A DNA stretch of 48,562 nucleotides from Candidatus Zixiibacteriota bacterium (lineage in GTDB: Bacteria; Zixibacteria; MSB-5A5; CAIYYT01): the NCBI GenBank assembly GCA_020853795.1, contig JADYYF010000064.1, positions 1-48,562 of the forward strand, read 5' to 3'. The position numbers were made by a program, and so were the translations under genes. Positions within the stretch are counted from its first letter, which is position 1; every line of letters starts with the position of its first letter. Positions 19,075 to 38,764 of this stretch are shown here, piece after piece. The notes beneath the pieces were generated by a model. It was not told the DNA's origin. It saw only the letters and a program-made list of their open reading frames with translations, and did no database searches.

Positions 19075-19680
19075 CTACCGCCTATGCACTCGGAGAATGG
19101 CCGTCACTTTCCCCTGAATTGTTGCGTTCTTCACGTAGATCGGTTTCATCTTGGCGTTGGCTGGCTGTAACCGGATGCGGCCGCGCTCGCGGTAGACGCG
19201 CTTAAGCGTGGCAGTGTTGTCGTCTAGTAACACAACCGCAATATCGCCATTGGTGACCGAAGCCTGTTGCCGTACGACTACAAGGTCGCCGTCAAGAATG
19301 TGATCTTCAATCATGCTGTCACCCTTTACTCGCAGACCGTAGGCGCCGGGCCTGGCTGCTTCTTTCGGTAGTGTCACAGGGTCTTCAGGGTTTTCAATGG
19401 CCTCAATTGGCGACCCAGCTGCGATAGTCCCAACAACGGGCACGCTGACAAGATTGCCCCTATCTATGACATCCTCAACCAAAGTAATTCCCCGAGCCGA
19501 TCCACTAGAGTGAATCCATCCCTTTTTCTCAAGGGTCTGCAGGTGTTCGTGGACGGTCCCGACCGCTGATTTCGTGGACTTTGCCATATCTCGCACAGAC
19601 GGCATAAACCCCCGCGCTTTCAGGTAGAAGCGAAGGGTATCCAAAACACGCTTTTGCTTAGGGGTAAGCGGCTGCTCCAT
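19075..19680 (-). CDS. lexA: LexA repressor
   Basis: A 201-residue LexA from ATG 19680. The N-terminal winged helix (LTPKQKRVLDTLRFYLKARG; MPSVRDMAKSTKSAVGTVHE) is followed by an S24 peptidase domain. The self-cleavage site is A88-G89 in GTIAAGSP. The catalytic dyad is S122 in GDSMIEDH and K160 in ATLKRV, at the usual distances. In the SOS response RecA filaments trigger cleavage and derepression. A longer in-frame start at 19773 is rejected because the promoter and operators lie in that extension. The promoter spacer contains GTTC-N7-GTTC, so it is autoregulated. An element-borne LexA could tie excision or cargo to DNA damage. Confidence 0.92.
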   Translation of the reverse strand: MEQPLTPKQKRVLDTLRFYLKARGFMPSVRDMAKSTKSAVGTVHEHLQTLEKKGWIHSSGSARGITLVEDVIDRGNLVSVPVVGTIAAGSPIEAIENPEDPVTLPKEAARPGAYGLRVKGDSMIEDHILDGDLVVVRQQASVTNGDIAVVLLDDNTATLKRVYRERGRIRLQPANAKMKPIYVKNATIQGKVTAILRVHRR

Positions 19681-19690
19681 AGATACGAAT

Positions 19691-19719
19691 AGTGTACCGA
19701 ACAATGCCCGAACGGACAA
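19691..19719 (-). promoter_or_regulatory. lexA promoter with LexA box in the spacer
   Basis: On the minus strand: TTGTCC (19714-19719), a 17-base spacer and TACACT (19691-19696). The spacer holds GTTCGGGCATTGTTCG (19698-19713), a GTTC-N7-GTTC direct repeat in the ideal place for autorepression. Confidence 0.75.
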
Positions 19720-19739
19720 GGTCTGGTTATCCACAAGTA

Positions 19740-19755
19740 TTGCCGGCAACGGCAG
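19740..19755. promoter_or_regulatory. Partial copy of the TTGCC-N6-GGCAA operator
   Basis: TTGCCGGCAACGGCAG matches the palindrome at 18965-18980 in both half-sites except the last base. It lies upstream of the lexA -35. Confidence 0.4.
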
Positions 19756-19813
19756 TTCTTTCAGACTTTTCAAGCAACTGTATTTAATCCTACGCTTACA
19801 CCGTGGTTCGATT

Positions 19814-19873: not shown

Positions 19874-21697
19874 ATGCAAAGAGCAATAATCTATTGCAGG
19901 GTCTCGACTGAAGAACAGGCTCAAGATGGGCATCACTCGCTTGCCGCGCAGGAATTCCTTTGTCGTAAGACGGCAGTCGATCAAGGCTTCGAGGTTGCGG
20001 CCGTATTCAAGGACCCCGGTCGCACGGCGACAAACATGCACCGGCCCGGGCTGCAAGATGCGCTTGCTCGCTGTCAAGCAGACCACTCGATAAAGGCGGT
20101 ATTCGTGCAGGACACTGACAGACTAGCCAGGAACACGCAAGACCACCTGACCATCCGGGCAGTCCTTAAGAAGGCGGGCGTCCAACTCATATCGGTTTCG
20201 CAGCCTATGCTTGAAGACAGCGCTGAGGGTCACATGATCGACACTATCATTGCAAGTGTGAATCAGTTTCAGTCAGATATAACGTCTCGGAAAACGATTA
20301 AAGGTCTTGAAGAAAAAGTCCGTGGTGGCGGGTGGCCGGCACTTGCGCCACTCGGATATCGCAATGTCGGCACCGGCCAGGACAAGCAGAACCGGGTAGT
20401 CGAGGTTGACGAATCGGTCGCTCCGCTTGTCAAACGCATGTTCGAGCTATATGCCACCGGCAACTACTCGGCCCACGAACTTGGGGAAGTTATGTTTGGT
20501 CTTGGCCTACGTTCCAGGAACCACAAGAAGCTTCAGATCAGCAAAGTTCTGACTATTCTGCAGAACCCTTTCTACATCGGTGTCGTGAAGTGGGGTGGGA
20601 TTTCTGCCAAGGGCACGCATAACCCCATAATCAGCGAGGGGCTATATCGTGCGGTACAGGCAGTCATGAAGGGTCATGGTGGAAATCGGAGTAGGAGACG
20701 TCGGCATGACTTCCTGCTCCGTGGATACCTGTTTTGTGGGTTTTGTGGAAGGCGCATGATCGGCGAGAAACATCCGCTGAAAAAGGCGGCTTACTACCGC
20801 TGCCACAAGCGGGGAGGGTGTCAGCCCGCGGCCAGAACTGAGCTCGTTGAGAATGACGTGTCGGCGTTGTTTGATCTTCTCACGATCGACTCAGGATTGA
20901 TCAATGAGACAACCGCCGCACTTTCTAAGCGATTGTGTGCAGACAGAAAGGCTTTCGTCGAAGTCCGTACCGCACTATGCAATCAGAAGACCGCTTTGGA
21001 ATCTCGACTAACGCACATTGAGCGGAAGTGGCTTGATGGTGTACTCGATGATACCGACTTTACACGGCTGAAGACACAACTCAGGGCCGACCTCGACACT
21101 GTAGAACACCGTTTGGCCGATCACGATCTTCAAAATCGAGTGAATGTCGATGAAGTTAGGGAAGTCGTATCCTTCGCGGGCTCGATTGGATTCCACTACC
21201 AGCAAGCCCCGGAATATCTGAAGCGGCTCTTGCTCAAGCTCGCCTGGGAGCGATTCGACGTGCGAAACAATGAAATTGTCGAGGCTGTTCCAACGCCGGT
21301 TTTCCGAACTTTGACCGGATCAGGCTCTGGCTTAACTAACGCACAGAAGCCCGTCCTTTTGGAACGGGCTTCTGTGCAAAGGGGTGACCATCACCCCACT
21401 CAGGCCTCAATCGAACGAGTAGTTCGATTAAGAACCGAGTGGGGTCCCAACCGGATGCCTAATCGTCCAGAGAATCGCAGGAAAGTTGCCGGGAACGGCA
21501 ACTATTGCCCCGCTCAAAGTCTGTTGGAGCTTATCAAGGACGCCGGGTATTTTCAACAGGTGTTGGCTCTGTTTCGAGAGATTCAGTCCGGGTTGGGCTA
21601 TACATCGAAGGCTGGTGGCGGTCCTTTGAAGAGTGCTTCTCACGATACCAAACCCATTGGTAGATTATGTCGGCAAGTTGAGTCGCCGCGGCTTTGA
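19874..21697 (+). CDS. Large serine recombinase
   Basis: A 607-residue site-specific recombinase. The resolvase-type catalytic domain starts at once: AIIYCRVSTEEQ with the nucleophile Ser11, then a typical DTDRLARN and QSDITSRKTIKGL region. The recombinase domain follows (APLGYRNV, VKRMFELYATGNYS, NPFYIGVVKWGG). Then comes a zinc ribbon with Cys pairs CGFCGRRM and YRCHKRGGC (~295-325) and a coiled-coil region. It is divergent from lexA. Having a second recombinase class inside a tyrosine-integrase island suggests a nested element or a dedicated inversion or excision step. The last ~125 residues run through four DNA palindromes (21341-21503) and look unlike the family, so the true functional end may be near residue 490. 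Confidence 0.9.
   Translation: MQRAIIYCRVSTEEQAQDGHHSLAAQEFLCRKTAVDQGFEVAAVFKDPGRTATNMHRPGLQDALARCQADHSIKAVFVQDTDRLARNTQDHLTIRAVLKKAGVQLISVSQPMLEDSAEGHMIDTIIASVNQFQSDITSRKTIKGLEEKVRGGGWPALAPLGYRNVGTGQDKQNRVVEVDESVAPLVKRMFELYATGNYSAHELGEVMFGLGLRSRNHKKLQISKVLTILQNPFYIGVVKWGGISAKGTHNPIISEGLYRAVQAVMKGHGGNRSRRRRHDFLLRGYLFCGFCGRRMIGEKHPLKKAAYYRCHKRGGCQPAARTELVENDVSALFDLLTIDSGLINETTAALSKRLCADRKAFVEVRTALCNQKTALESRLTHIERKWLDGVLDDTDFTRLKTQLRADLDTVEHRLADHDLQNRVNVDEVREVVSFAGSIGFHYQQAPEYLKRLLLKLAWERFDVRNNEIVEAVPTPVFRTLTGSGSGLTNAQKPVLLERASVQRGDHHPTQASIERVVRLRTEWGPNRMPNRPENRRKVAGNGNYCPAQSLLELIKDAGYFQQVLALFREIQSGLGYTSKAGGGPLKSASHDTKPIGRLCRQVESPRL
21341..21503. repeat. Cluster of four perfect palindromes at the recombinase 3' end
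   Basis: (1) 21341-21377: GCACAGAAGCCCGT pairs with ACGGGCTTCTGTGC over 14 bases. (2) 21381-21397: GGGGTGA-CCA-TCACCCC. (3) 21393-21445: outer ACCCCACTC/GAGTGGGGT with inner AATCGAAC/GTTCGATT (21409-21429). (4) 21484-21503: AGTTGCCG-GGAA-CGGCAACT, which contains TTGCC-N6-GGCAA. Structures 2 and 3 share bases, so they are alternatives. They are read through in frame by the recombinase gene. Possible roles are transcription stop, origin, attachment site or operator. Confidence 0.7.
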
Positions 21698-21761
21698 CGA
21701 TGTCATGGTCCAGAATCCCGTTACCGGAACGGGGTAGTTCTTTGGCTTCGCTTTCATTCAT
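21534..21761 (-). CDS. Possible small protein antisense to the recombinase tail
   Basis: A 75-residue frame on the strand of the KAP operon, 75 bases after the KAP stop codon. Its first ~42 residues look like a folded helical protein (KELPRSGNGILDHDIVKAAA, then QLADIIYQWVWYREK). The last 30 are Pro/Ser/Thr-rich and may be chance. It overlaps the last ~160 bases of the serine recombinase frame in antisense, and only one of the two tails may be real. A GAGG lies close before the ATG inside a small GCCTCA/TGAGGC hairpin. Homologues at the protein level would settle it. Confidence 0.3.
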   Translation of the reverse strand: MNESEAKELPRSGNGILDHDIVKAAATQLADIIYQWVWYREKHSSKDRHQPSMYSPTRTESLETEPTPVENTRRP

Positions 21762-21836
21762 GCCTCAAGCATGAGGCACAACGTTCATGTTAGGAAGGGA
21801 GGAAAAGTTGCCGAGATGTTCGTATTCGGCCTAGGA

Positions 21837-24800
21837 TCAACTCAATGAATCCACCCATTTCCTGAACTCGTCATCTTGCCCATTATCTTTGGGGTCAAGT
21901 GACCTCAGACCATCCCGTATTTCGTTCTTAATTGATTGATCGGCCGATGAGTTATAGTAATTCTGGATATCGACGAAGTTCCTCGAGAAATCACCCTCGC
22001 TGAGTTTCATCTTCGTAAGTAATCTGAACGCTAACTTGATTGCGTTGACGTCATTAGATTTTACTACCAACTCATCCAGGCAGATATCGGCGAGTTTTTC
22101 CTTTTCCTGCTTGTTGAGTTGATCAACTGCATAGCAGATAAATTCTAGAGCGAACACCTGATACTTGCTGGCACTTGGCAAAGTATCGATCCAATCGAAA
22201 ATCCCTTTCACGATACTGCGCGTATTCTTCTTCGTAAGAAAATCCGCCTTAGTTGCTGCATCATAGCCGATCTTCTGGTTATTTGAATCGGGCAATTTCA
22301 AATGCGTGAGCAGCTGGTCAGCGAACTGATCTATGAGCTCCGGCTTATCAGCGCAGCGCAATCCAATGCAAGCTTCGTAGCATCCCGGCTTCTGCGCCGC
22401 AGAGTACCCAGCTGCTACCGCTAAGAGTTGCGATACTATCTTCTCTCTATCGGGGATCTCGTACTTTAACGCTTTGAAGCGACGGAATGCTTCAGTCGGG
22501 TTAGATGCAAGAATCTTCAGTAGCCACTCGGTTTTCTTCTGATCGGTTAGGCCATCATAGAACACATTGAACATCTCAGGTTCGGCAACGCTTCGCTGCT
22601 CAAGCGGAGACGTGAATGGTCCAGCGTTCAGGAGCACCTGAACGCCGCCGACTTCAGTACCACAGGACCGAATCGCTTCTGGCGTAGCTGATGTACAGAA
22701 TTGCTGGATGAAACTGGCGATTGAGGGTTTCTTGGCTTCCTCAACCATTGCGTGAAGATCGAACAACAAGGCAACAGCCTGGATTCGACGCGGCCAATCC
22801 GCAAACGTGTTGGCGTTAGTGATTATCGAATCTGTGAGTTGAGAAAGGGGTGTGTCCTTGGTTGCAAGAGAACCAAAGGTCGACAGCGCCTTTCGAATGG
22901 CAAAGAATATGACGTTTCTGTCTCTTTCAACTTCTGGTGAAAGCGGGATCGGGGCCTTCAAATTGAGAAGCTCGATGAATTTTGTAACGGACAGAGTGAA
23001 GTGCTTGGCATCAAACAAGCTCTTACTGAAGGAGAGAATCATTTGCCATCGCTCTGGTATCTGCAGCTCTCCGAGTTGTCCCTCTGACTTGGGGAGACCT
23101 GCAAGATCGCGGTCTGAAATTGACTGAATGAATGCCTCGACCAATGGCTTGGAAAAAGCGGCAGACTGCGCTTTGTCGGAGGCCATGAAAAGCCGGAGTG
23201 TTTTGACATCTGAGGCAAATTGGCTAGCAAGCACTTTTTGCACCCTAGCTTGTAGTTGATCGATTAATGTGGGTACTTCCGCAAAGAGTTCGAAAGCCTC
23301 GGCAATGAAGAGGGACTTCGTTTTTCGAAGATTCTCCTCAGGAGCGATAACTTCCAACCTTTGCACCCAGCGCTCTACAACTGACTGCTGAAACTGTGAA
23401 TGATGTGAGAGCATGTTCGCATAGAGGTGTCTAGGCGAAATCGTATCGATGCGCTCTTGAAACTCCGCTGACGTGAGAGTTGAGTGAAATTGGGCGTAAC
23501 AAGATTGGTTTAGCGTTATTTTCCGGTCAGTGAGTATTTGAAGCAATCCGTTCAAAAAGTGCGCTTTCCCTGTGGGGTTGGTTATATTCTCAAAGTGGGT
23601 CTTTATGGCGTAGCTCAAAGCCTCTATATCATTGCCGAGCTGGTCCATCCCTTGCGCTTGCTCCTTGGCCTTGGCGATCTCGTTGTCCTCCAGCATTTCG
23701 AAAAGCCGGTCAATTCCTGGAAACTTCTTTTCCTGGTCTGAACGCCTTAACGCGTAGTATGTCCGAAGATTTGTCATTCGCACTTCGGATTTAACTTCAC
23801 TCACAAACGCAAGAAACTGCTTCGCCGTATTTTCGTCTATTCCAACAGAATTCAGAGATTCTAGCTGATGTTCTTCAAGTGAGGTTGCCTTCAGATTCCT
23901 GAGTTCTGCCATGACATTCGGGTATAGGTGATTCAATAGAAGATAGAGGCAGATTTCTAAGCGATTCTTCTTTGCAAATTCTGGCTCAAAATCTTTGCCC
24001 TCTCCTTCTCGCTCACGAATCAACAGGAAGTTCGATACTAGGATATTGACAAACTGAATAATTTGTCTAGGATTGTCGCGAAACGCTTTGGTTACAAGCC
24101 ACGCGATGCCTTCATCGTTTAAGTCATCGATGCCAGTGGACTTCAAACAGGATCGAGCGTAGGATTCCAATTCGCTGGAAATAAATTCGGGGATCCAGAG
24201 TACTGTATTGAAGAATTTCCGCAAGAATTCATCCGGGTCAAAGGCGCGGCTAGCCATGGCTGAGGTCCCAGCTGAGTTCTTGCCATAAACAGCAGTAATG
24301 TGTGCGCGAATGGCTTTATCGTCGCAGGGGATCAAGAACACAATCCCTTTGTTGGGTAACGTTAGATCCTTCGGTTCGAGAAACGTCTTAATGGTCGTAA
24401 GAGTTTCAAGTGCCTTCTCATGGGTGACTCGATCAAGGTTGTCAAAGATAATGAGCGTACGACTGGACTTGGATGCGACAATTATGCGTGCAAACTCGTC
24501 CTCAAATTCGTGAGGGTCTTGCAGTTTCTCGTTCGAGAACGTAGTTGTCTCGGTTCCTAAAATTTGAGTGAAGAGATTCAATAGCCAAACAATCAAGCCC
24601 CCACCAAAGATTGTGCCGATTGCGCTCGCTACGATGCCGGGTAAGCCCAGTTTCGTACCCACGATTCCGACTGCAGCTAGGACAACAAAAAGAACGATAG
24701 AGACGATAACTAACTGAGCCGTCTTTTCCTTGTTCAGTCGAAGCCGACCTTCATGATTGCGGTTTACACTGTGTTCGAGGCGGTCATTAAGCTGAAAATT

Positions 24801-25142
24801 GGTCTCCAGTGGGTTTCCCGGAGCTGACCTTAGCTGGCGCACTAGCTCTTTCAGAAACGATCTCCGCAGCGAGTCGCCTTCATGCTTCCAAACGTCGAAA
24901 AGGACAACGGGAATCGAACGATTTTTCAGATTGGCGGCAATCATGTTTGCGATAGTGCTTTTTCCTGACCCCCATTTGCCGAACAGACCTATAGTGAAGG
25001 GCGTTGGACAATTCTCCACCACTTGGACTAGGGTTGCAGCAATGTCGCAGTGCCCGAATAGCCCCCGTCCACCGGATTCGACACCTTGGAGAGGTTGGTC
25101 CTTAAGAAGTTGAAACGATTTCTGAGTAGAAGTATCCCGCAT
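21837..25142 (-). CDS. KAP family P-loop NTPase
   Basis: A 1101-residue KAP NTPase. The Walker A motif is FGKWGSGKST (54-63). Two membrane helices are inserted before Walker B (~143-163 and ~166-194: LVIVSIVLFVVLAAVGIVG; GIVASAIGTIFGGGLIVWLL), the hallmark of the family. Walker B is TLIIFDNLDR (229-238), followed by FLIPCDD and a conserved DNPRQIIQFVN sensor region (~350-360). The remaining ~700 residues are helical and repeat-like, perhaps a scaffold or sensor. KAP proteins are membrane-attached NTPases found in defence islands and include plasmid F PifA, which excludes phage T7. It is third in an operon after a LexA-like repressor and a DUF2188 protein, so induction by damage or infection is plausible. 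Confidence 0.88.
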   Translation of the reverse strand: MRDTSTQKSFQLLKDQPLQGVESGGRGLFGHCDIAATLVQVVENCPTPFTIGLFGKWGSGKSTIANMIAANLKNRSIPVVLFDVWKHEGDSLRRSFLKELVRQLRSAPGNPLETNFQLNDRLEHSVNRNHEGRLRLNKEKTAQLVIVSIVLFVVLAAVGIVGTKLGLPGIVASAIGTIFGGGLIVWLLNLFTQILGTETTTFSNEKLQDPHEFEDEFARIIVASKSSRTLIIFDNLDRVTHEKALETLTTIKTFLEPKDLTLPNKGIVFLIPCDDKAIRAHITAVYGKNSAGTSAMASRAFDPDEFLRKFFNTVLWIPEFISSELESYARSCLKSTGIDDLNDEGIAWLVTKAFRDNPRQIIQFVNILVSNFLLIREREGEGKDFEPEFAKKNRLEICLYLLLNHLYPNVMAELRNLKATSLEEHQLESLNSVGIDENTAKQFLAFVSEVKSEVRMTNLRTYYALRRSDQEKKFPGIDRLFEMLEDNEIAKAKEQAQGMDQLGNDIEALSYAIKTHFENITNPTGKAHFLNGLLQILTDRKITLNQSCYAQFHSTLTSAEFQERIDTISPRHLYANMLSHHSQFQQSVVERWVQRLEVIAPEENLRKTKSLFIAEAFELFAEVPTLIDQLQARVQKVLASQFASDVKTLRLFMASDKAQSAAFSKPLVEAFIQSISDRDLAGLPKSEGQLGELQIPERWQMILSFSKSLFDAKHFTLSVTKFIELLNLKAPIPLSPEVERDRNVIFFAIRKALSTFGSLATKDTPLSQLTDSIITNANTFADWPRRIQAVALLFDLHAMVEEAKKPSIASFIQQFCTSATPEAIRSCGTEVGGVQVLLNAGPFTSPLEQRSVAEPEMFNVFYDGLTDQKKTEWLLKILASNPTEAFRRFKALKYEIPDREKIVSQLLAVAAGYSAAQKPGCYEACIGLRCADKPELIDQFADQLLTHLKLPDSNNQKIGYDAATKADFLTKKNTRSIVKGIFDWIDTLPSASKYQVFALEFICYAVDQLNKQEKEKLADICLDELVVKSNDVNAIKLAFRLLTKMKLSEGDFSRNFVDIQNYYNSSADQSIKNEIRDGLRSLDPKDNGQDDEFRKWVDSLS

Positions 25143-25166
25143 ATGTCCTCAAAGTTAATTGATCAA

Positions 25167-25409
25167 TCAGTGCTTCTTATCCTTCGGCGGGTTGGGATCG
25201 TTGGCTGGTGCAACGGTGTCGCTGTCGCGAATCGGACCCGAGGGCTTGTGAATCCGCACTTCTCCACCTCCGCTGTTAGCTGCAAACTGTTTCGCCATTT
25301 TCTCTGCCACTGATTGCGTGTCAGCGGTCGCGCTGGCTCGGTCTGCGCCCTCGCGCTTGACCTTCCATTGGCCAGACGCCTTGTTCTTAGTCACGTGATA
25401 GTTGGACAT
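25167..25409 (-). CDS. DUF2188 protein
   Basis: An 80-residue protein from ATG 25409 (an in-frame ATG 15 bases upstream is nearly as good). It matches DUF2188: YHVTKNKASGQWKVKREGAD, then RAS, then a helix with MAKQFAANSGGGEVRIHK, and the ending GPIRDSDTVAP. DUF2188 proteins are small and widespread, with unknown function. It sits between the LexA-like repressor (11-base gap) and the KAP NTPase (24-base gap) on the same strand, so it is most likely part of the KAP module, perhaps as its regulator or partner. Confidence 0.8.
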   Translation of the reverse strand: MSNYHVTKNKASGQWKVKREGADRASATADTQSVAEKMAKQFAANSGGGEVRIHKPSGPIRDSDTVAPANDPNPPKDKKH

Positions 25410-25420
25410 TGACTTGTGCC

Positions 25421-26056
25421 TCATAGTTTAAGTGTTGAATTATCGATTACCCTTTGCACGACGCCCAGCACTTGGAAATCTTCAGTCAGGATAATGGGCT
25501 TGTGCTTCGGATTTGATGAACGTGGTTTCAAGATGACGGCCTGCGGCTGGCGGTGGAACTCCTTGATCGTGGCCTCGCCGTCGATCAGGGCCACGACAAT
25601 GTCGCCATTGCTGGCGGTCTGCTGTTGCCGAACCAGGACAAGATTCGAGTCGTGGATTCCCGCTTTGTTCATTGAGTCGCCGGTGGCTCGCAGAAGGAAG
25701 TAGCGGTGGGGCCGTTTCGCCAGTTGAACCGACACCGGAATCATTGCATCAATATTCTCCTCAGCCAGAACCGGAGCGCCGCATGGCGCGGAACCGACAA
25801 GGGGGACGTTGACCGTCTGTGTATGTGATTCGGTCTCCCGTAAGTCCTTTAGAAGGCGAATCTGGCCGCGGCCATTGCGGATAATGAACCCTTTGGACTC
25901 GAGTTTTTCGAGGATGTAGGCCGCCGCCCTAGGGGACTGATACTTCAACTGCTTCTGGAGATCTCTGACCGAGGGGGCCTGCCCCCCGTGAACGATTTGG
26001 TTTCTAAGGAACCGGAGAGCCTCCAGCTCCTTGTCTGTCAGGACGTGGGTATCCAT
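25421..26056 (-). CDS. Second LexA-like (S24) repressor
   Basis: A 211-residue LexA-type autorepressor, divergent from the one at 19.1 kb. It has a winged helix (LTDKELEALRFLRNQIVHGG; PSVRDLQKQLKYQSPRAAAY), a cleavage site C92-G93 in SAPCGAPV (Cys-Gly, common in cyanobacterial- and phage-type LexA) and a dyad of S128 in GDSMNKAG with K165 in ATIKEF. It heads the operon with DUF2188 and KAP. Its promoter is a consensus one carrying an 8-base direct repeat between -35 and -10, unlike the GTTC boxes of the other LexA, so the two regulons look separate. Its likely role is to keep the KAP module silent until cleavage. Confidence 0.88.
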   Translation of the reverse strand: MDTHVLTDKELEALRFLRNQIVHGGQAPSVRDLQKQLKYQSPRAAAYILEKLESKGFIIRNGRGQIRLLKDLRETESHTQTVNVPLVGSAPCGAPVLAEENIDAMIPVSVQLAKRPHRYFLLRATGDSMNKAGIHDSNLVLVRQQQTASNGDIVVALIDGEATIKEFHRQPQAVILKPRSSNPKHKPIILTEDFQVLGVVQRVIDNSTLKL

Positions 26057-26068
26057 AATATGCCGGTA

Positions 26069-26097
26069 TTGTATAAGAGCGTATAAGAACTGTCAAG
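26069..26097 (-). promoter_or_regulatory. Promoter and direct-repeat operator of the LexA-like/KAP operon
   Basis: On the minus strand: TTGACA (26092-26097), a 17-base spacer and TACAAT (26069-26074). The spacer and -10 hold TCTTATAC-GC-TCTTATAC (26072-26089), a direct repeat placed to block polymerase. Confidence 0.8.
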
Positions 26098-26129: not shown

Positions 26130-27821
26130 TCAACCCTGCAAATGACTTAGGAACGATTCAACTGCGGTGGCAAATTCAGGGTGGGCCGATTTAATAGCTG
26201 GCCAATCGTTCTCACCCAACACCGATAGGAGATGACGCCAATTCTCCGAACTCTGCTTTGTGGTTCCAAGCGCAGATTCTAGAGTGTCTGGGAAAGCGTG
26301 ATGTCTTACTTGGGATTTCTCAATGACAGATACGATCTTCTGCGCATCAGCAGCGGAACATTGGTTGTTCCTATCAGTATCGAATATGACAAAGTAGTCA
26401 ATCCTGAGTGCTTTGCACAACTTGATGTAGTCAGGAATCTGGGTTTTGCTATCGCAGTCAATAACGGATATGCTTCTTGCGTCAAATTCAATCCCCTTCT
26501 TCTCTAGCGCTACGAGAAACACCGCCTGATCATCCTGGCCTTCTGTGAGTAACGCATGACTAGAAAACAATAGTTCTTCGTTACCTTTGCGTTTGATTTT
26601 TTGCTTCATCTTATCGAAGTCAAGATTCTCGCTTGCGCCAACCTGAAATGCATGCGTGCAGATCGACGACTTTGTCAGCCGAATAATAGACTTGTAATCA
26701 TTTATATCTACGAACTCCTCCGAGTGGGTAGCTAAGATGACGGTATTACCGCGGTTGGCGAGCTTCTTCAATGTCCGATGACAGTAGCGGCGAAGATGTG
26801 GATGTAGGTAAATCTCGGGTTCCTCAATGATGTAGATTGCTTGATCTCGGTTTGTCATCTGAGCGAGAGTGCTTAATGCTGCCAGACGAAAAAGGCTTAA
26901 GTACCCCTTTCCTAGCTTAGAAACTTCTATAGGCTGCAACTGAGACGATTCTTTGATCTCCAGTCTAGTGATGGTGTCAAATATCTCGTCATGAGAAGGT
27001 AGTCCGAGACTCAATTTTGTAGCCTTCGGATCGTTTAAGCCCAAATACTGACTGATATTTTGCGCCAAAGCCTCTTCTATTTCGTTCAATTTCGACGTTC
27101 TTAGAACATCTACCAACCGTTCTGCCGCCCGTTTGTAAGCTTCCTTTGAGGATATTGACTTCTCCTGGTCGCCGTCTTTGTACCGGTACATGCTTGCATC
27201 ACTTTGAAAGTCATCTCTGTACAATTGAAATAGTCGACCCAGTGGCCCAAACCCGGATACCTTGAAAAAAGACTCGAGGTGCTCAATGTCTAGGAAGAAG
27301 ATCTGGCCGACTTTCGACAAGTAGGCTTTTGCAGGAATAGGTTTGCGTTGGTTATCAATATCTTCGTCTTCATCGTTTTTTTTCTGCTTGTAGATGTGAT
27401 CACTGTCCATGAGGGGCATTTCAGTCTTGCCCTTTGCGTTGCGACCGAAGCAGTAATGATCAACATGAATTCGCCCCTTTTCCTGTCCTGACGCATACGA
27501 CTTTGCTTCCAAGAAAAAGCCGTCGATGAAGCACTTTTGTTGGTAGACGTTGCGGATTTCTATAGGAGTCGCAAGCGTAAGCTTAATTTGAATTGTCTTT
27601 GACTGGTCTTGATCGTGAAAGTCAGTGACTTGAATATCATAATTATAGAACTTGCCGCTACGGACCCCAATCACTAAAGCAAGGGCATCCAGCACATTGC
27701 TCTTGCCGGCATTATTCGCGCCAATCAAAGCAAACAGACCAGTTTGATCCGCGAATTCTATGGCAATCCCTGGGTCGCCCATGGATCGGAAGTTTGTAAT
27801 TTCGAGTTTCAATATGGCCAT
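26130..27821 (-). CDS. OLD family ATPase-TOPRIM nuclease
   Basis: A 563-residue overcoming-lysogenization-defect protein. The ABC-type ATPase half opens with ILKLEITNFRSMGDPGIAIE and Walker A GANNAGKS (34-41). The signature region (GKGYLSLFRLAALSTLAQM) and Walker B (IYIIEEPEIYLHPHLRR) with a following His switch (ILATHSEEF) are clear. The C-terminal TOPRIM domain shows ALLTEGQDDQAVFL with the metal-binding Glu, then YFVIFDTDRNN with the DxD. OLD proteins are ATP-regulated DNA nickases or nucleases in phage defence. No UvrD-like helicase follows, so it is not a Gabija pair. It is the last gene of the seven-gene operon that begins with AbiEi. Confidence 0.9.
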   Translation of the reverse strand: MAILKLEITNFRSMGDPGIAIEFADQTGLFALIGANNAGKSNVLDALALVIGVRSGKFYNYDIQVTDFHDQDQSKTIQIKLTLATPIEIRNVYQQKCFIDGFFLEAKSYASGQEKGRIHVDHYCFGRNAKGKTEMPLMDSDHIYKQKKNDEDEDIDNQRKPIPAKAYLSKVGQIFFLDIEHLESFFKVSGFGPLGRLFQLYRDDFQSDASMYRYKDGDQEKSISSKEAYKRAAERLVDVLRTSKLNEIEEALAQNISQYLGLNDPKATKLSLGLPSHDEIFDTITRLEIKESSQLQPIEVSKLGKGYLSLFRLAALSTLAQMTNRDQAIYIIEEPEIYLHPHLRRYCHRTLKKLANRGNTVILATHSEEFVDINDYKSIIRLTKSSICTHAFQVGASENLDFDKMKQKIKRKGNEELLFSSHALLTEGQDDQAVFLVALEKKGIEFDARSISVIDCDSKTQIPDYIKLCKALRIDYFVIFDTDRNNQCSAADAQKIVSVIEKSQVRHHAFPDTLESALGTTKQSSENWRHLLSVLGENDWPAIKSAHPEFATAVESFLSHLQG

Positions 27822-27838
27822 AGGAGTTGAATATCACT

Positions 27839-28351
27839 CTATAAATTGACTGGGCCCTGCTGTTCACCTGGATACGGCCCGATTGAAGTGCCTTCGTCTA
27901 TCAGGTCCTGAATGGTGCCCTCTGGCTTCTTGGGCAACGCATACGCGCTATGTAAATACGACAAGGACGTGCCGGTCGCAACGGCGTTTATGTAATGACC
28001 GTCAATGTCCTTGTTCATGGTCAAGCGCCAACTGTGCCCTGACTGATCCGTGAAGTAAAACTTAACTTCTTTGTTGAAATGAAAGTCGGAGGGGTTGTGT
28101 CTGTGGTCGGTGTATTCGAAGACCAAGTAAGTTGTACCTGTCGGCGTGACCTCTCCGATGCGTCCCTGGCTCCAGACAGTAGCGACTATCAACTGGCAAT
28201 TGTAAGCGCTTCGCGTTCTCTGCTGTCGTTCATCCTGCAGAAATGCCGGCGCATTGTCATTCTCATAATATCGATAACGCCCGTGTTGAACAGTCGCCGC
28301 GGCTGAACTGAAGAAAGTGGTATTGCCAAACGGACGAGGGTGATTTGCCAT
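27839..28351 (-). CDS. Hypothetical protein (170 residues) of the defence operon
   Basis: It begins two bases after the stop of the 75-residue gene, with GGAAGGTG as ribosome site, and ends 17 bases before the OLD gene. The sequence is beta-rich with many aromatic and polar residues (GTTYLVFEYTDHRH; EVKFYFTDQSGHSWRLTM) and a His/Asn-rich middle, compatible with a small binding domain. It has no membrane segment and no catalytic motif I recognise. Tight packing between the methylase and OLD genes argues for a role in this operon, for instance as an adaptor or specificity partner of OLD. Confidence 0.6.
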   Translation of the reverse strand: MANHPRPFGNTTFFSSAAATVQHGRYRYYENDNAPAFLQDERQQRTRSAYNCQLIVATVWSQGRIGEVTPTGTTYLVFEYTDHRHNPSDFHFNKEVKFYFTDQSGHSWRLTMNKDIDGHYINAVATGTSLSYLHSAYALPKKPEGTIQDLIDEGTSIGPYPGEQQGPVNL

Positions 28352-28353
28352 GA

Positions 28354-28581
28354 CTACACCTTCCGAGTGCTAGAATCAGGATCAGGCTCGATTGGACTTG
28401 CTGCCCTCCTCCAGCCCGCTCTTATCATGTCAGCGAGAACAATGTATGAGATGTAAGGGCGATTGTGCCTCAATGTCGAGGAATACTTGTAATCGGCAAC
28501 GAAGTCGTCAAAAACGGACCACAATCCGCTCGGGAGGGTACTTCGAGCTTGTTGGAGTTTGGGCGATTCATTCAAACTCAT
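28354..28581 (-). CDS. Small hypothetical protein (75 residues) of the defence operon
   Basis: A short gene with GAAGAAGGG before its ATG, 16 bases after the methylase stop and two bases before the next gene. The centre (GLWSVFDDFVADYKYSSTLR; YISYIVLADMIRAGWRR) is helical and looks like a small globular protein; the ends are charged. No motif recognised. The ribosome site and packing support expression. It may be a regulator of the neighbouring methylase or helicase. Confidence 0.55.
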   Translation of the reverse strand: MSLNESPKLQQARSTLPSGLWSVFDDFVADYKYSSTLRHNRPYISYIVLADMIRAGWRRAASPIEPDPDSSTRKV

Positions 28582-28597
28582 CTGGGATACCCTTCTT

Positions 28598-31500
28598 CTA
28601 TAAAGACGCGTCAGTCTTTAACTCTTCCGGTTTGATTCCGTAAATCGCGAAAATCTGAGTGTCAATCTGTTTACGCAGAGCTGCAACCTCCGGAATCTCG
28701 GCCGATTCGGAACATCGGGACTTTAAGATCAAGTGTTGTAGGTCACGAACCATTTGAGTTACTTTGTCATGGTCCGCTTGTTGGGGCTTTTTTATTGGAA
28801 CAGACTTTAGGAAAGAGATCGGGTACTTTAGTGAGCCTTTAGGAATTCTGGCGGAGTAGAACTTTTTCCTGTGAAACCAGTTAACAAGGGATGAGTTGAG
28901 CACCGCCGTCAAGTATTCGATGGAGATGTTCTTCTTTGGGTATGGTCTGACCGCGTGAACAGCGACTAGAATGCCAAAACCTTCTCTGTCGATACTCGCA
29001 GTTAATTTCTTTGCAACCCCCCTAACGATAATCTTCTCACAACCAAACAATTTCTTCGTCTCTTGGCTCAAAGGAACTGAGTCGACATCCAAGTAAGGAT
29101 TAGTGAATTTCTTCTTAAAGAGATTTATGGGCTTTCCAAAAAGGAAATTGTACGGTTCCACGTGACTATTAGTAACAATGCGAATATAGCCAGGCCGCTC
29201 TCCTTCCCTGATGAACTTGGACATAGCCCAATACTCGAAACCCATTATACCAGTTCTTACATCCGCCAACTCAACCAACTCTTCACAACCCATGAGGAGC
29301 CGCGACAACACCGGGGCTACATCGTCACTTATGTGAATCTCAAATGCATTAGACTTACCACGAGTCAATGAATCTTGCTGGACCTCTGTAAACTTGATTC
29401 TATCGAGAATCGCCAAATCATCTTCACCAAGTAGTGCGATCTTGACGCAGTGCTCCGGCATTGGCAGTGACTTCTGAACCACGGTGACAATCGGTGACAC
29501 AAGTACATTCTCGAAGACTTTCCTGCAATCAGCAAGATCGATTAGCTTCAAGATCGTAGTGTCTGTCTTTAGCAGGTCCCTCAATTTGGAGCCATAATCT
29601 GCGATGACGTATTTATTCGAAGTGATGAAGCAAAGAGTTCCGTTTTGCTTCATAAGGTCTAGCGCTCGTTTGAAGAAGAGGATGTAAATATCAAAAGAAC
29701 CGTGAGCAATCGGGTAAACAGACCTGTATAAAGTTAGCAACTCCTTCATTTCGTGCGAGTTCACATACGGCGGATTGGCTATCACAATGTCAAAACCATC
29801 CTTTTCGTCGAACACTTCCATGAAGTTTAGTTTCCATAGAAAGAACGGACGCACCCCTTTGGGATCGTGTATTGTTTTTAGCAAGTCATTCAAAGCTCCT
29901 TCTTTGGCGAGCTTTCCTGCCCACTGTTCCCAGTGCTTTTCGCGGTCCCCCTTCTTGAGAAGCTCCCTTTCTCGTTCCTTCGCCTTCCGCAAGGTCTTGA
30001 CACGCTGCAACTCCTCATTGACTGCCCGACGCACAAACCAGTCAATGAGATCGTTGATACGACTCCGGAGGGTAGCTTTCGATTTGTCATCGCTTGTCGA
30101 GAAGTACTCCCGCTTCTGCCACCTCAATTGATCTTTCTTTTGTACCTGGTCCTTGTCGTCAAAGAGAGTTTCGTGGCCGTCGCCATTCAAGCCTTCGTAG
30201 AAACGAACTCCTTCGAATTGCTCCAGAAGACTGTTCCCCTGCATTATCTTGTAATCCAAGTTTGGTAGCGGCTCGATATCCTCAAGATCATAATCTACTA
30301 CAAGTGACAGCCACAGTCGTAGCTTTGCAATATCGACCGCGCCGGGATCAATATCGACGCCGTAAATGCAATCTTGAATGGCGGTTTTTTTCATGCGGTA
30401 ATCAGTTAACCTTGGGCGAAGGCTCTGCCGTGCCCGCACGATCTCTTGGAGCATACCGACAAGGAATGCACCGGAACCGCAAGCAGGATCCAGCACTCGA
30501 ATTTCGGCCAGCAACTTGTCAATGCGTTCCCTATTGTCGCGGATATCTGGTGCCAGTTCGTCGACAGACAGCACCGGATTGCGTATAAAGCCGCGAATGG
30601 TCTCATATTCAAGCGCTGATCCGTCGACCAGGTAACTTATGAGACTCTCCTGGCACATGTAGTGAACGATTTCTCGGGGTGTGTAATAAGTGCCATGTCC
30701 CTTTCGAAGATTTTCCGCCAACAAATTCTCGAATACTTTACCGAGCATCTCTGGGTCAACGGCTACTTCGCGCTCGAGAGGCTCGTCCTCTTTAACTGTG
30801 AAGTTGAAGCGATCAAAGACCTCGAGGATATCTCCAAATATGCCGTTCTCGAGATGAATGGTAGTTCTTTCCCAATCATAGTCCGGCTCAAACAGCCCGC
30901 CGTTCAAAAACGGAATCTTGGATTCGAAGTGTTGCGAATAGTTTCGGTCAGCCTGCCGGCTGCGAGGGTTATTTAGCGTGTCGTAGAAAAGGATCTCCAA
31001 GTAGTCATTGTAAAAGTTTTCATTCTTCTCGACACATCGACTGAACAGGGTACGTAAGAAGCCCCTGTCACCATCCCCCCAAGTCTTGCCTTTGGGAACC
31101 CCGAGCCAGCCCTTCTTTTGAAGAAAATAGAGGAATACAATTTGTCCTAGTAGCTTCTTGGCAAAGTTCTCTATATCGAGGTTGTTTCGCGTGGCCACTA
31201 TTACAAAGCCCTTGTTCTTATTCAGGCTAGCCGACAGCTTGTCGAACAGGTTTCGATACTGCTTGAAGAATTCCTTAGTGACAGGGTCAACCGCGAACGC
31301 ATTCTCCAAATCTGTCAGCTTGGGCTCTCCATTGGCAAGAATTGGTAGAAGTCTGCTTTGTGCCGTGTGGCTGTTCTCATTGGCTCCGACAAGGAAAGAG
31401 TACCGCTTCGCTGGTGACAGCTCCTCTACAACCTTGTTCCGGTCAGCATCGTATTTGTAGGCCATTCGGACAAACGAGAAGCGCCAATCTTGATCACCTG

Positions 31501-31849
31501 GAGATACAAACGCTACTAGAGCTGCATCTTTAGGCTGTCCACTTTTGAGGTACTTGGCGACGAAATTCCTCTGGGCGGATCGAGCGCGCTCGATACTCCT
31601 ATCCGCATTCAGGTTGACTATCAGTATGTCAATCTTGTTTCCCTCAACATCTTTGTACTTGCCGAATCTATCGTAGGAGTTTATGTATCGCCTAAACTCA
31701 GGGAATATCTCTTGTGATTCTAGTGGCTTTGCGAAAGATGCCGGTTCCAGACCTACCAGCAAATTGCCAATAAATCTCGCAAATTGGTCCCGGCTGAACG
31801 GTTGTTCAAATGTGTCTCGTATGATCTTTTGTGCCGCTTCTCGCTGCAT
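28598..31849 (-). CDS. Eco57I-type N6-adenine DNA methyltransferase/restriction-modification protein
   Basis: A ~1083-residue protein. SAM-binding motif I is VLDPACGSGAFLVGML (~residue 453), and the catalytic motif IV is FDIVIANPPYVNSHE (~686), the NPPY form of N6-adenine enzymes. Upstream of motif I lies the usual helical block ending GHGTYYTPREIVHYMC. The C-terminal ~350 residues should hold target recognition. The N-terminal ~200 residues (YDRFGKYKDVEGNKIDILIV) are of unknown fold; a nuclease there is possible but I see no sure PD-(D/E)xK set. ATG 31849 is chosen over a TTG 12 bases upstream because GGGGA lies six bases before it. It starts one base after the stop of the PLD-helicase gene, so the two are co-made. 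Confidence 0.88.
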   Translation of the reverse strand: MQREAAQKIIRDTFEQPFSRDQFARFIGNLLVGLEPASFAKPLESQEIFPEFRRYINSYDRFGKYKDVEGNKIDILIVNLNADRSIERARSAQRNFVAKYLKSGQPKDAALVAFVSPGDQDWRFSFVRMAYKYDADRNKVVEELSPAKRYSFLVGANENSHTAQSRLLPILANGEPKLTDLENAFAVDPVTKEFFKQYRNLFDKLSASLNKNKGFVIVATRNNLDIENFAKKLLGQIVFLYFLQKKGWLGVPKGKTWGDGDRGFLRTLFSRCVEKNENFYNDYLEILFYDTLNNPRSRQADRNYSQHFESKIPFLNGGLFEPDYDWERTTIHLENGIFGDILEVFDRFNFTVKEDEPLEREVAVDPEMLGKVFENLLAENLRKGHGTYYTPREIVHYMCQESLISYLVDGSALEYETIRGFIRNPVLSVDELAPDIRDNRERIDKLLAEIRVLDPACGSGAFLVGMLQEIVRARQSLRPRLTDYRMKKTAIQDCIYGVDIDPGAVDIAKLRLWLSLVVDYDLEDIEPLPNLDYKIMQGNSLLEQFEGVRFYEGLNGDGHETLFDDKDQVQKKDQLRWQKREYFSTSDDKSKATLRSRINDLIDWFVRRAVNEELQRVKTLRKAKERERELLKKGDREKHWEQWAGKLAKEGALNDLLKTIHDPKGVRPFFLWKLNFMEVFDEKDGFDIVIANPPYVNSHEMKELLTLYRSVYPIAHGSFDIYILFFKRALDLMKQNGTLCFITSNKYVIADYGSKLRDLLKTDTTILKLIDLADCRKVFENVLVSPIVTVVQKSLPMPEHCVKIALLGEDDLAILDRIKFTEVQQDSLTRGKSNAFEIHISDDVAPVLSRLLMGCEELVELADVRTGIMGFEYWAMSKFIREGERPGYIRIVTNSHVEPYNFLFGKPINLFKKKFTNPYLDVDSVPLSQETKKLFGCEKIIVRGVAKKLTASIDREGFGILVAVHAVRPYPKKNISIEYLTAVLNSSLVNWFHRKKFYSARIPKGSLKYPISFLKSVPIKKPQQADHDKVTQMVRDLQHLILKSRCSESAEIPEVAALRKQIDTQIFAIYGIKPEELKTDASL

Positions 31850-31850
31850 A

Positions 31851-34800
31851 TCAGTCCCCAATTAGATATTCGGAAAGGATGACTTCTCGAGGTCCACTAA
31901 CTTTGGCCGACGATTCGGCCAAGTGGCTTTCGAGGAATTCAGCCGGTATATTCTTCTGAAGTACTGCAAGCATCTTGAGCGGATTGACTCCCTGTTTTAC
32001 CATGGAAGTCATCTCCTTCAAGGCTGTCTTGGCTGTCTGCCGGGGCAATCCGCCTTCTTCAAGCTGGATGATCACCTTGCGAACATACTCCTCTTGCTCA
32101 TCCGTGAACTGGCGGTAGTCCTTTACCGCTTTCAGCATCTTGAGCAACTGCGTAGCGGTATCTCTGCCGCCCTTGAGCTTGGTATCAGGCATGTCGTCTG
32201 TGGTCGCAAAGGTGAATGCCTCTTTGTTCTTATCCAACAATTCGTAGAAGTCAGAACCCAGCTTTTCGCGCTTCACGGACGAGGTGACTTCGAGTGTAGC
32301 TGCAGCCGCTATGAAGTCCAGTTCAACAGGACCGCCTTGACCCGCTAGGTAGAATTTCTGAATCCTGCCCTTGCGGAAGTATGTAAGCAGGTGATTCCGT
32401 TTGTCTGAATCATGCCTGGCTGTCCGCGCCTTCTTGGGGAGCCGTTTGATCTGCTCGAACAGGTCCGGATCGTTGTCCCGGATATCACGAATGAGTTGGA
32501 GGTATTTGAGCCCGCTGTCTTCTTCACCGTCTTCTCCGGTGATTGTCTTTCGGGATACCAGTCGATCAAATAGCTCGTGGTGTTCAATGGCCTCTCCGTC
32601 TGTCAGCAAGCGAGCATCCGCTCCCAAGAGAGTAATGAATGCCTGAATCTTTGCTTCGGCGGCTTCTTTGAGCTTGATCTGGTCATTCGATTGCTTCGTC
32701 GGGAAGAAGTTGAACGTGTATATCTTGTCAAACTTTGTGTCTACGCGGTTAATGCGGCCAACACGCTGCATAAGCCGGGTCGGATTCCATGGGATATCGT
32801 AGTTGATGACGACATTAGCCTGGTGCAGGTTTACACCCTCTGAAAGCACTTCAGTCGCCACCAAAATGCGGTACTCGTTCTTCGGATGTCGGGCTTTTGC
32901 ATCGAAATTCTGAATCACTTTCTCTCGGATGTTCGCACTTGATGAACCAGTATAGTTGAGCACGTGGTGACCAAGCTTTTCCGTAAGGTGCTTTGACAGA
33001 TAATCCGCAGTCTCCTTTGATTCCGTAAAGACGATAAGCTTGCTGTCCTTGAGCACCTTTCGACTGGTGAGCATATCCAAGAACTTGAGCAATTTCGGAT
33101 CACGTTGCACCGATTGCCAGAGGTCGCGGATCTTTATGAGTAGGGCAAGGTCGTTTTCGAGGTCCTGACGAAATTCTTTCTTGAATCCTTTGGCCTCGTA
33201 CTTCTCTGCCTTGCCTTCTTCTATCAATTCCAGAACGCTCTCTTCGTCGCCCGAGCCTAGAAGGTCGAATATCTTGTTCGCGTAGTCTTTGCTGATGTAG
33301 ACCGCGCCTTTGTCATAATGCTCCAGGAAGAGTTCATACGACGCAATGAAACGGTTAATCGTGTTGCGAAATGCGAAGAAGCTACTCTCCAGGCGCTTCA
33401 CCAAGAGAATCTTCATGAATCGGCCGAGGTTTTGTTGGGCTAGTCGCTCCGGTTGTTCGATCTCTCCTTTGTAATACAAGAGAGGCATGTATCGGGCATA
33501 TTTGAACTTCAATGCAATCAGCTTGATTGTCTCGCTGAAGACCCTGTCTTCATTGTCATCGAGCTCATAGTAGGCAGGCTCAGGATCGACAACCTCTGGA
33601 AAGCGAAGTCCCTGTTTCTTGAGATCGTCCGGGAAAAAAGACTCAATTTCCCTGCGCGTTCTTCGTACCATCAAGTACTTGAGTACTTTGTCACGGATTT
33701 CCCGCGCGTTTTCCTTGGTAACTTGTATAAACTTTTCGAGATCACGCTGGCGATCCAGACCCTTCAATTTCCCTTCGAGCTTTGCAAACAACTTTTCCAA
33801 GTCCGCCGTGCCTGGGATCGTACTCTTCCGGGAATTCTGGAAGAGCTTGATCTGGCTCAATATGTCCTTCGGCGAATTGTTGAACGGCGTGGCAGTTACT
33901 AGAATGACCCGCTTGCCGCGGCAGACCTGCGCCAGCTTTTCGTAAGTGATGTTGGTTTCAGTGCGGAACCGGTGCGCTTCGTCGACAATAATGTTCTCAT
34001 AGAATTCGGTGCCGTGTTTGATGATCGAATCGAGTTTGCCCAGTGATTCAAATTTCGCATATACCCTGAAGTCCCTAAACACGTTTGGCCAAGACCCTGG
34101 GTTTTCTTCATCAAGCAATACTGGCGGCGCAAGAACGAGCGTACGGCCATCTAACTGATTAGCAAGCATCGCGGCCATGTATGTCTTCCCAAGCCCCACA
34201 ACATCCGAAATAAACACACCGCCGTATTCATCAAGAATTTTCTTCGCGTTTAGTACCGCCTGTTCCTGGTATTCCAAGCGTTTGAACTCGACGGGAACAT
34301 ACTTGAAGAATACTTCTTCGGATCGAGATATTTCGTCCTTGTAGTATTCATAGAGGAATTTCAAATACAGTTGGTAGGGTGTAATCGTGTCATTGAGCCA
34401 GGTCTTGGTTTGAATCGTCTCTATGTACTTGTCACTGACGTCAACTGCATCGGCCCAGAGTCTGTCGAATTGATCTTTCGCAAATGCGTAGTCGGATGGA
34501 TTCTTCAATTCGACGTTGAATTCCAGATTATCAACAAGCCCAGCGTGCGTGAAGTTGCTGGAACCTGTTATGACGCGACCTACATCCCGATCGTCTTCTT
34601 GAAATGTCATGATATAGAGCTTAGCGTGGATGTTGGCGGAAGGGTAAGCACGAATCTCCAACTTGCCACTTCGCAGCCACTCAAGGAATTTGTGAACGCC
34701 GGCTTCAACCTCTCGTTTGTCCTGCGAATTGCCCAACTCTTCCGTGACAGCTTTCCCGAATTCATCTTGAGTCTCGGCATGTGAAAGCGGTAACGACTCT

Positions 34801-35039
34801 TGCTCAGCCCGGTCGATGAGCTCTTTTGTGTCTCGCCCCGTACCGATGCCTATGAGTATTCGAATCTTCTCCGTCTTCTCGAGAGACTTATAGAGCGCAT
34901 AGAAACCGCTGGTGAAGAAATATCCCACCAAAACGTCGAAAAGCCGTGTGTCCTTAATGAGTACTCGGAATCGGTCAAGTAGACGCCGGGCTTCTTCGTT
35001 GGTGATGAATGTAAGATCTGTTGCTGGTTTATTGGTCAT
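31851..35039 (-). CDS. Phospholipase D-like nuclease fused to SNF2-type helicase
   Basis: A 1062-residue fusion. Residues ~30-190 form a PLD nuclease domain: LVGYFFTSGFYALYKSLE, then the catalytic HxK in IHAKLYIMTF, then the GSSNFTHAGL block. The helicase covers ~260-800: motif I SDVVGLGKTYMAAM, motif II IIVDEAHRFR, motif III LVTATPFNN, and the C-terminal half with ATEVLSEGVNLHQANVVINY and QRVGRINRV. Enzymes of this build translocate on DNA and cut it. With the adjacent methylase it can make an ATP-dependent restriction-modification pair in which methylation marks self. The C-terminal ~250 residues are helical and of unknown role. Confidence 0.9.
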   Translation of the reverse strand: MTNKPATDLTFITNEEARRLLDRFRVLIKDTRLFDVLVGYFFTSGFYALYKSLEKTEKIRILIGIGTGRDTKELIDRAEQESLPLSHAETQDEFGKAVTEELGNSQDKREVEAGVHKFLEWLRSGKLEIRAYPSANIHAKLYIMTFQEDDRDVGRVITGSSNFTHAGLVDNLEFNVELKNPSDYAFAKDQFDRLWADAVDVSDKYIETIQTKTWLNDTITPYQLYLKFLYEYYKDEISRSEEVFFKYVPVEFKRLEYQEQAVLNAKKILDEYGGVFISDVVGLGKTYMAAMLANQLDGRTLVLAPPVLLDEENPGSWPNVFRDFRVYAKFESLGKLDSIIKHGTEFYENIIVDEAHRFRTETNITYEKLAQVCRGKRVILVTATPFNNSPKDILSQIKLFQNSRKSTIPGTADLEKLFAKLEGKLKGLDRQRDLEKFIQVTKENAREIRDKVLKYLMVRRTRREIESFFPDDLKKQGLRFPEVVDPEPAYYELDDNEDRVFSETIKLIALKFKYARYMPLLYYKGEIEQPERLAQQNLGRFMKILLVKRLESSFFAFRNTINRFIASYELFLEHYDKGAVYISKDYANKIFDLLGSGDEESVLELIEEGKAEKYEAKGFKKEFRQDLENDLALLIKIRDLWQSVQRDPKLLKFLDMLTSRKVLKDSKLIVFTESKETADYLSKHLTEKLGHHVLNYTGSSSANIREKVIQNFDAKARHPKNEYRILVATEVLSEGVNLHQANVVINYDIPWNPTRLMQRVGRINRVDTKFDKIYTFNFFPTKQSNDQIKLKEAAEAKIQAFITLLGADARLLTDGEAIEHHELFDRLVSRKTITGEDGEEDSGLKYLQLIRDIRDNDPDLFEQIKRLPKKARTARHDSDKRNHLLTYFRKGRIQKFYLAGQGGPVELDFIAAAATLEVTSSVKREKLGSDFYELLDKNKEAFTFATTDDMPDTKLKGGRDTATQLLKMLKAVKDYRQFTDEQEEYVRKVIIQLEEGGLPRQTAKTALKEMTSMVKQGVNPLKMLAVLQKNIPAEFLESHLAESSAKVSGPREVILSEYLIGD

Positions 35040-35071
35040 AGTTTTGAAGTGGTTAGCTCGTGTATTAGGAA

Positions 35072-36360: not shown

Positions 36361-36390
36361 ATCTATGGACTATAAAGGGGTTCCAATCTC

Positions 36391-36433: not shown

Positions 36434-36472
36434 GCGCAATTCTCGTGTGGCCAGAGCCTGACTCCCCCTAAA

Positions 36473-38757: not shown

Positions 38758-38764
38758 TGGTTGC

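Follow-up and report, generated by a model that had tools for sequence, protein, structure and literature searches.

A LexA-type repressor cassette and its predicted role as a damage-responsive switch ahead of immune genes in Zixibacteria

Three families of damage-responsive controllers located ahead of immune operons have been described in print, with CapK+CapS being the third after CapW/BrxR and CapH+CapP (PMC13373217). According to that article, the controller targets include cyclic oligonucleotide-based antiphage signaling systems (CBASS), Bil, Thoeris, and restriction-modification (R-M) systems, and yegP came after capKS in 57 of 443 cases. The terms "LexA" and "S24" have no occurrence in that article, and LexA appears in the CapW paper only once, inside a reference. 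No article combining "LexA family" with "phage defense" was found in the literature, subscription papers being outside the search. Here, we analyzed a 48,562-nucleotide stretch of a Candidatus Zixiibacteriota genome (the entire contig stretch is henceforth termed the window), which bears a minus-strand operon comprising the genes for an S24 repressor, a DUF2188 protein, and a KAP NTPase in this order. Judging from the sequence, the repressor is probably a LexA-type, damage-switched controller behind which effectors are exchanged, the KAP NTPase being the current one. In the sequence comparison, the conserved unit is the promoter, S24, and DUF2188, not the trio with KAP.

The LexA-type repressor and its operator

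All three families in the operon were confirmed by Pfam. The features are listed below.

26068-26096, minus strand: sigma-70-type promoter TTGACA-N17-TACAAT with 11 of 12 consensus matches, the best within 21.5-28.7 kb
26071-26088, minus strand: putative operator seen in the sequence, two TCTTATAC direct repeats with a period of 10, lying within the spacer and partly within the -10 box
25421-26056, minus strand: LexA-type S24 repressor of 211 amino acids (Pfam, LexA matches in PDB, residues Cys92-Gly93/Ser128/Lys165)
25167-25409 (25424 is the start of the open reading frame as listed), minus strand: DUF2188 protein, probably of 80 amino acids (Pfam, PADLOC PDC-S16, start set by homology, predicted fold)
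21837-25142, minus strand: KAP NTPase of 1,101 amino acids (Pfam, PADLOC PDC-S20 and QatA, hydropathy, low-confidence model)

The original prediction had proposed a three-gene operon that is headed by an S24 repressor with a Cys-Gly cleavage site, ends in a KAP NTPase of 1,101 residues, and is preceded by a consensus promoter holding an 8-base direct repeat. The open reading frames and Pfam matches bear out this layout, and both the cleavage site and the promoter with two copies of the repeat were found as described. As the homologues of the DUF2188 protein begin at MSNYHV, its start is probably at 25409, 11 nucleotides past the S24 stop, rather than at 25424, which gives a 4-nucleotide overlap with the S24 gene. 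The gap between the DUF2188 and KAP genes is 24 nucleotides, and no terminator-like site was found on the minus strand within the operon.

The S24 protein matched Peptidase_S24 (PF00717; 1.1e-28) and LexA_DNA_bind (PF01726; 3.9e-10), thus combining a winged helix-turn-helix (wHTH) with an S24 domain, and matched LexA in PDB at full length (8e-24 across residues 5-206). Its C92-G93 bond and S128/K165 dyad align with those of Escherichia coli LexA, a protein that undergoes RecA-driven self-cleavage followed by derepression; we take this as the simplest model for S24, and a RecA gene is present in the host genome. We scanned for relatives by the S24 alignment and used the best 80 of 214 throughout; these and six loci of the phylum, minus two duplicates (L061 = G095 and L063 = G057), gave 84 non-duplicate loci. 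C92, G93, S128, and K165 are invariant in all 84. Among the outgroup S24/LexA sequences, 11 of 12 bear Ala-Gly, and the lone Cys belongs, on translation, to a divergent protein of the genome G088. At positions 41-44 of the recognition helix, most family members have SPRS or SPRA, and STNG predominates in the outgroup. In the S24 phylogeny, 77 of the 84 family sequences were separated as a clade from the 12 outgroup sequences with a support of 98 in the Shimodaira-Hasegawa-like approximate likelihood ratio test, and the window sequence fell in a starred clade of seven, six of which are accompanied by DUF2188. On this "quick" tree, in which 39 of 93 inner branches are open, we counted roughly 9 changes for DUF2188 and 18 for effector class.

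The hosts of the best 80 relatives include Zixibacteria, Bacteroidota, Omnitrophota, Patescibacteria/Gracilibacteria, Pseudomonadota, KSB1, Elusimicrobia, and Nitrospirota, among others. All counted plasmid matches of S24 were below 60% identity, most of the 30 matches listed being named lexA, and every one of the 116 phage records was below 60% as well. Viral contigs yielded five loci, two of them at 61%. In one viral locus (L141), S24 is followed by a 392-amino-acid HNH-type protein, read as SAVED-HNH from the sequence and not from a profile.

The -35 box TTGACA (26096-26091) and the -10 box TACAAT (26073-26068) are separated by a 17-nucleotide spacer, and this promoter ranks at the top of 13 promoter-like sites in 7.2 kb (shuffled sequence averages 6.6 such sites). 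The TCTTATAC copies lie at 26088-26081 and 26078-26071. The exact pattern TTATACN4TTATAC occurs only once in the 3.56-Mb genome, at the S24 promoter, and allowing a mismatch adds one further site (six for the reversed-pattern control). Because the genome holds a single exact site, the operator is likely that of a local switch, and not part of a scattered SOS-box regulon of an SOS master.

Operator conservation was counted over 83 loci, omitting G019, in which S24 is cut at the contig end. The strict repeat ([GT]TATA twice, period 10-12) was found upstream of S24 in 37 of 83 loci and in none of 82 upstream control stretches, the shuffle means being 0.4-0.5 loci per period. A relaxed TATA(C) direct repeat with a period of 10-11 bp, sought over a slightly different stretch, was found ahead of S24 in 52 of 83 loci (36 strict) and ahead of other genes of the same loci in 15 of 617 cases (4 strict). 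We rejected the possibility that the repeat is a mere -10 box, because only those 15 of 617 other genes show it, and their matches look random. As GTATAC is its own reverse complement, the site may be read either as a direct repeat of half-sites or as tandem palindromes.

Cassette boundary and the genes behind it

The cassette boundary was delimited by comparison with the closest relative, the genome G088 of the same phylum.

25166-26097, minus strand: promoter-S24-DUF2188 cassette, 84.7% nucleotide identity to G088 over exactly that stretch
21632-21812, no strand assigned: 181-nucleotide stretch behind the effector genes, common to the window and G088, 79.6% identity

The homologous block extends from the -35 box through the end of DUF2188 and stops there. 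The cassette is flanked upstream by OLD in the window and by TIR in G088, and downstream by KAP in the window and by a CBASS cyclase in G088. Among the loci compared, the 181-nucleotide stretch was found only in these two. Furthermore, G088 holds a copy of the last 85 nucleotides of DUF2188 (L051:7238-7322) behind an SLATT gene, where the following effector gene begins. Together, the boundary and the 85-nucleotide copy are as expected if effectors had been exchanged serially at the end of DUF2188. The copy at L051:7238-7322 is joined in frame to the SLATT gene. G088 also bears a second, divergent S24-DUF2188 pair (L051:16245-19654) about 9 kb from the first, heading a CBASS-like operon; a gene of 98-127 amino acids comes after DUF2188 both at this second pair and in G043.

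DUF2188 is linked to S24, not to KAP. It lies directly downstream of all six closest S24 proteins in the phylum (60-100% identity and at least 231 bits; the next match had 115) and adjoins S24 in 15 of the 84 loci. Across 132 genomes of the phylum, we detected 11 DUF2188 matches in 10 genomes; seven are beside S24, one of which adjoins the divergent S24 of G088 (itself matching the S24 and LexA_DNA_bind families of Pfam). This KAP had hits in 4 of the 132 genomes, the host of the window included. In G043, a full-length KAP relative (37% identity) is adjoined by unrelated genes, with its S24-DUF2188 pair on a different contig. As the KAP of G043 has neither neighbor, the fixed S24-DUF2188-KAP trio entertained in the original prediction was rejected by that prediction's own test, which had named KAP homologues without such neighbors as the refuting observation.

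The DUF2188 protein matched PF09954 (3e-20, 72.6 bits against a cut-off of 22) and PADLOC PDC-S16 (3.2e-19), and is predicted to adopt a b-b-b-a-b-b fold with a predicted local distance difference test (pLDDT) score of 82.5. It has no solved relative by sequence. A known nucleic-acid-binding fold was considered and dropped, with no significant PDB match (the best was AcrIF5, E 0.8, Z 5.8). Its likeness to the DUF1508/YegP fold is too weak for a claim, as VIA gave Z 4.3 to 2k8e amid unrelated rows and Foldseek gave nothing significant. Other small genes found after S24 encode DUF1508/YegP (L125), DUF3892 (L084; below the cut-off in L099), Multi_ubiq (L062), and an SNase-like protein (L134). In a mycobacterial prophage (L152:2629-3222), DUF2188 lies inside a protein annotated as an antitoxin next to a BrnT-like toxin. 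Seven papers were found to mention DUF2188, none of them in the title or abstract, subscription papers again being outside the search.

The genes behind the S24 family are diverse. Within 1.5 kb, 36 of the 84 loci carry a defense-type label, 18 an SOS-type label, and 30 neither. The nearest label within 4.5 kb was SOS in 19 loci, methyltransferase/R-M in 16 (the methyltransferase label being weaker evidence for defense than the others), CBASS in 13, E1 in 4, metallo-beta-lactamase (MBL) in 3, KAP in 2, and none in 27. Cyclases occur in 16 of the 84 loci. Behind the 15 S24-DUF2188 pairs, we found cyclase/CBASS genes in eight (G088, G057, G019, L066 after an R-M gene, L075, L116, L130, and L132), MBL in two (L073 and L101), KAP in the window alone, and other or cut genes in four, one of which, G095, has a Dsr1-like protein in this position (PADLOC 4.9e-15). 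PADLOC recognized a cyclase (1.6e-125) and a 2TM effector (1.2e-72) in G019, and among the downstream genes also phospholipase, SAVED-HNH, and E2. The labels did not count Avs4 in L064 (8.7e-165; L082 belongs to the same BLAST cluster), Thoeris ThsA in L138 (4.6e-13), and an MBL-like gene in L137 (by reading). Altogether, a wide variety of immune operons have an S24 family gene immediately upstream, and the family also heads the SOS genes recA, dinB, or dnaE. The members directly before recA (L107, L115, L120, L126, and L129) were titled Gracilibacteria where checked. In L095, L102, L108, L112, and other Bacteroidales, LexA-type proteins with TGTAT repeats precede dinB-dnaE, and the one tested (L095) has PF01726 and S24. 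PMC8565304 states that LexA homologues had not previously been identified in Bacteroidetes, with which these Bacteroidales proteins contrast.

The KAP NTPase matched PF07693 (1.7e-27 over residues 34-368) and, in PADLOC, PDC-S20 as the nearest model (6.5e-20), followed by QatA (1.3e-16) and PifA; the profile matches span the N-terminal third of the protein alone. A Walker A motif GKWGSGKS at 55 and a Walker B-like LIIFDNLDR at 230 enclose a hydrophobic insert at about 144-196 by hydropathy, and the protein is thus a P-loop NTPase with a membrane insert within the domain, as is typical of the KAP family. The structure model suggests a helical, HEAT-like C-terminal part, which is put no more strongly because its mean pLDDT is 58. 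There was no KAP match among 50,697 phage records, and 10 plasmid records matched, none with 80% coverage. A second case of S24 preceding KAP was found in Vicingaceae (L081). Within the whole reading, the link to KAP is the least secure, and the controller is the finding.

Proposed mechanism and its alternatives

We propose that the S24 repressor would hold the operon down by binding the TATAC direct repeats of the promoter from which it is itself transcribed. DNA damage, whether from replicating phages, from nucleases, or from other stress, would lead to RecA filaments and cleavage at Cys92-Gly93, and the loss of the cleaved repressor would allow the operon to be transcribed. DUF2188, which travels with the repressor, would most likely tune it or couple it to the effector, this being the weakest step. 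The KAP protein, as the current effector, would probably be a membrane-anchored NTPase stopping or killing infected cells. Promoter, S24, and DUF2188 would be a portable controller, and the effector genes would be swapped behind it by recombination. The order of the genes, their domains, the cleavage residues, the conservation of the operator, the cassette boundary, and the variety of effectors can be read from the sequences, and repression, RecA-driven cleavage, induction, an antiphage effect of KAP, and the role of DUF2188 are predicted. We regard "damage-switched defense module" as a good reading of the locus, with the response to damage being predicted, because the repressor has a conserved operator and its relatives head immune operons. 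If true, RecA-driven self-cleavage, the damage switch that is understood best in bacteria, would through this LexA-type class be connected straight to immunity by CBASS, Avs, and KAP, and the LexA tools already at hand could be used to test how suicidal immunity is kept off until infection. Effector exchange behind a fixed promoter-repressor-DUF2188 unit would be a concrete route for defense islands to gain regulated effectors, and the cassette linkage offers a handle on DUF2188. It is possible but somewhat doubtful that the unit serves many phyla as a general mobile cassette that senses damage and docks effectors, with swaps at the DUF2188 3' end and DUF2188 as a general co-controller.

Several observations weigh against the proposed reading. 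The relaxed repeat is missing in 31 of 83 loci. Four of the 11 DUF2188 matches in the phylum have no S24 neighbor, and plasmids carry DUF2188 without S24 among mixed neighbors. Only two cases speak for KAP as an effector, and in one of them (L081) the KAP frame ends after 123 amino acids. The 30 loci with neither label within 1.5 kb count against the reading as well, albeit they include L105 (the cultured Hyphomicrobium zavarzinii ATCC 27496) and L131, in which a cyclase overlaps S24, L064 with Avs4, and some contig ends. A Flavobacteriaceae group among them looks solitary. In favor of the reading, 24 host-LexA loci of the phylum showed DinB in six and defense labels in none, but this control has shorter flanks (1.5 kb) and is not independent, because the defense labels were built from the test loci themselves.

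The family's control of recA and dinB-dnaE would fit a unit for DNA-damage survival or cell death, in which KAP acts on stressed cells regardless of infection, and the authors on CapK+CapS say that immune and stress pathways grade together (PMC13373217). We hold this unlikely, as the labelled partners are mostly of antiphage-type families (36 defense against 18 SOS of 84) and the KAP protein, which matches QatA, PifA, and PDC-S20 models, sits within a defense island. A non-RecA signal, such as a phage protein or an element-encoded factor, might instead cut S24, or S24 might be an uncut plain repressor; the LexA-like IrvR is reported to deviate from the RecA rule. We consider this quite unlikely, since none of the 84 loci deviates at any of the self-cleavage residues. 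It is more doubtful still that S24 mainly controls a mobile element, like the SOS-responsive repressors of some integrative elements, with KAP as a passenger. The window does contain a tyrosine integrase, TraG/coupling-like ATPases, a replication-relaxation protein, and tRNA-Arg at both ends, but the exact operator stands before S24 alone, a different LexA (19075-19773) already sits amid the mobility genes, and in many phyla the S24 relatives are found at the head of immune operons. We favor the damage-switched controller with exchangeable effectors.

The surrounding element and relation to known controllers

The tRNA-Arg(TCT) genes at 10254-10327 and 43198-43273 share 34 exact bases (plus 14). 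The stretch of about 33 kb between them, which starts with the integrase and carries the ATPases, the relaxation protein, many defense genes, and the other LexA, is probably an integrative element. The defense stretch at 26130-36937 comprises an OLD nuclease, type IIG R-M, a PLD-helicase, AbiEii with an AbiEi-like partner, and TIR. At 37667-38793, an IrrE-type peptidase (PADLOC capP 1.1e-12) overlaps an XRE regulator and adjoins the TIR gene; this pair is CapH+CapP-like and lies in the same island as the S24 operon.

No QatB, QatC, or QatD was found among the scanned genes near KAP, its neighbors being DUF2188, S24, OLD, and a recombinase; the likeness to QatABCD, PifA, and PDC-S20 for KAP, and to PDC-S16 for DUF2188, is one of profile matches. 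Similar to canonical LexA, S24 has wHTH and S24 domains at full length and the same catalytic residues. It differs from canonical LexA in having Cys-Gly rather than Ala-Gly, SPRS rather than STNG at the recognition helix, TATAC direct repeats with one exact genome site, and immune operons as targets. Three other systems are partly comparable. The non-canonical LexA of Bacteroidetes (PMC8565304) resembles the S24 family in being S24 repressors of dinB-dnaE, but has a CI-type HTH (PF01381) and palindromic motifs, in contrast to PF01726 in the window protein and direct repeats here. RptR (PMC12255303) is likewise a defense-island repressor, whose target at the -10 box consists of three direct repeats, but is a single-domain four-helix protein without an S24 domain. 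UmuDAb-DdrR (PMC11332147) pairs an S24 repressor with a small corepressor protein; DdrR is Acinetobacter-specific, and its arrangement is a precedent for a small corepressor next to an S24 repressor.

Like CapW/BrxR, CapH+CapP, and CapK+CapS, the S24 family heads diverse immune operons as a predicted damage-responsive repressor, and the capKS-yegP order resembles that of S24 and DUF1508/YegP in L125. CapW/BrxR is a WYL protein, CapH+CapP is an HTH repressor with a peptidase, and CapK+CapS is of the kinase/STAS type, whereas S24 is one LexA-type protein predicted to cleave itself; Pfam found none of WYL, XRE with IrrE peptidase, or GHKL with STAS in the S24 and DUF2188 proteins. As the controller families described in PMC13373217 share this role, and that article makes no mention of LexA or S24, we regard the S24 cassette as a LexA-type addition to a known kind, the controllers of adjacent immune pathways.

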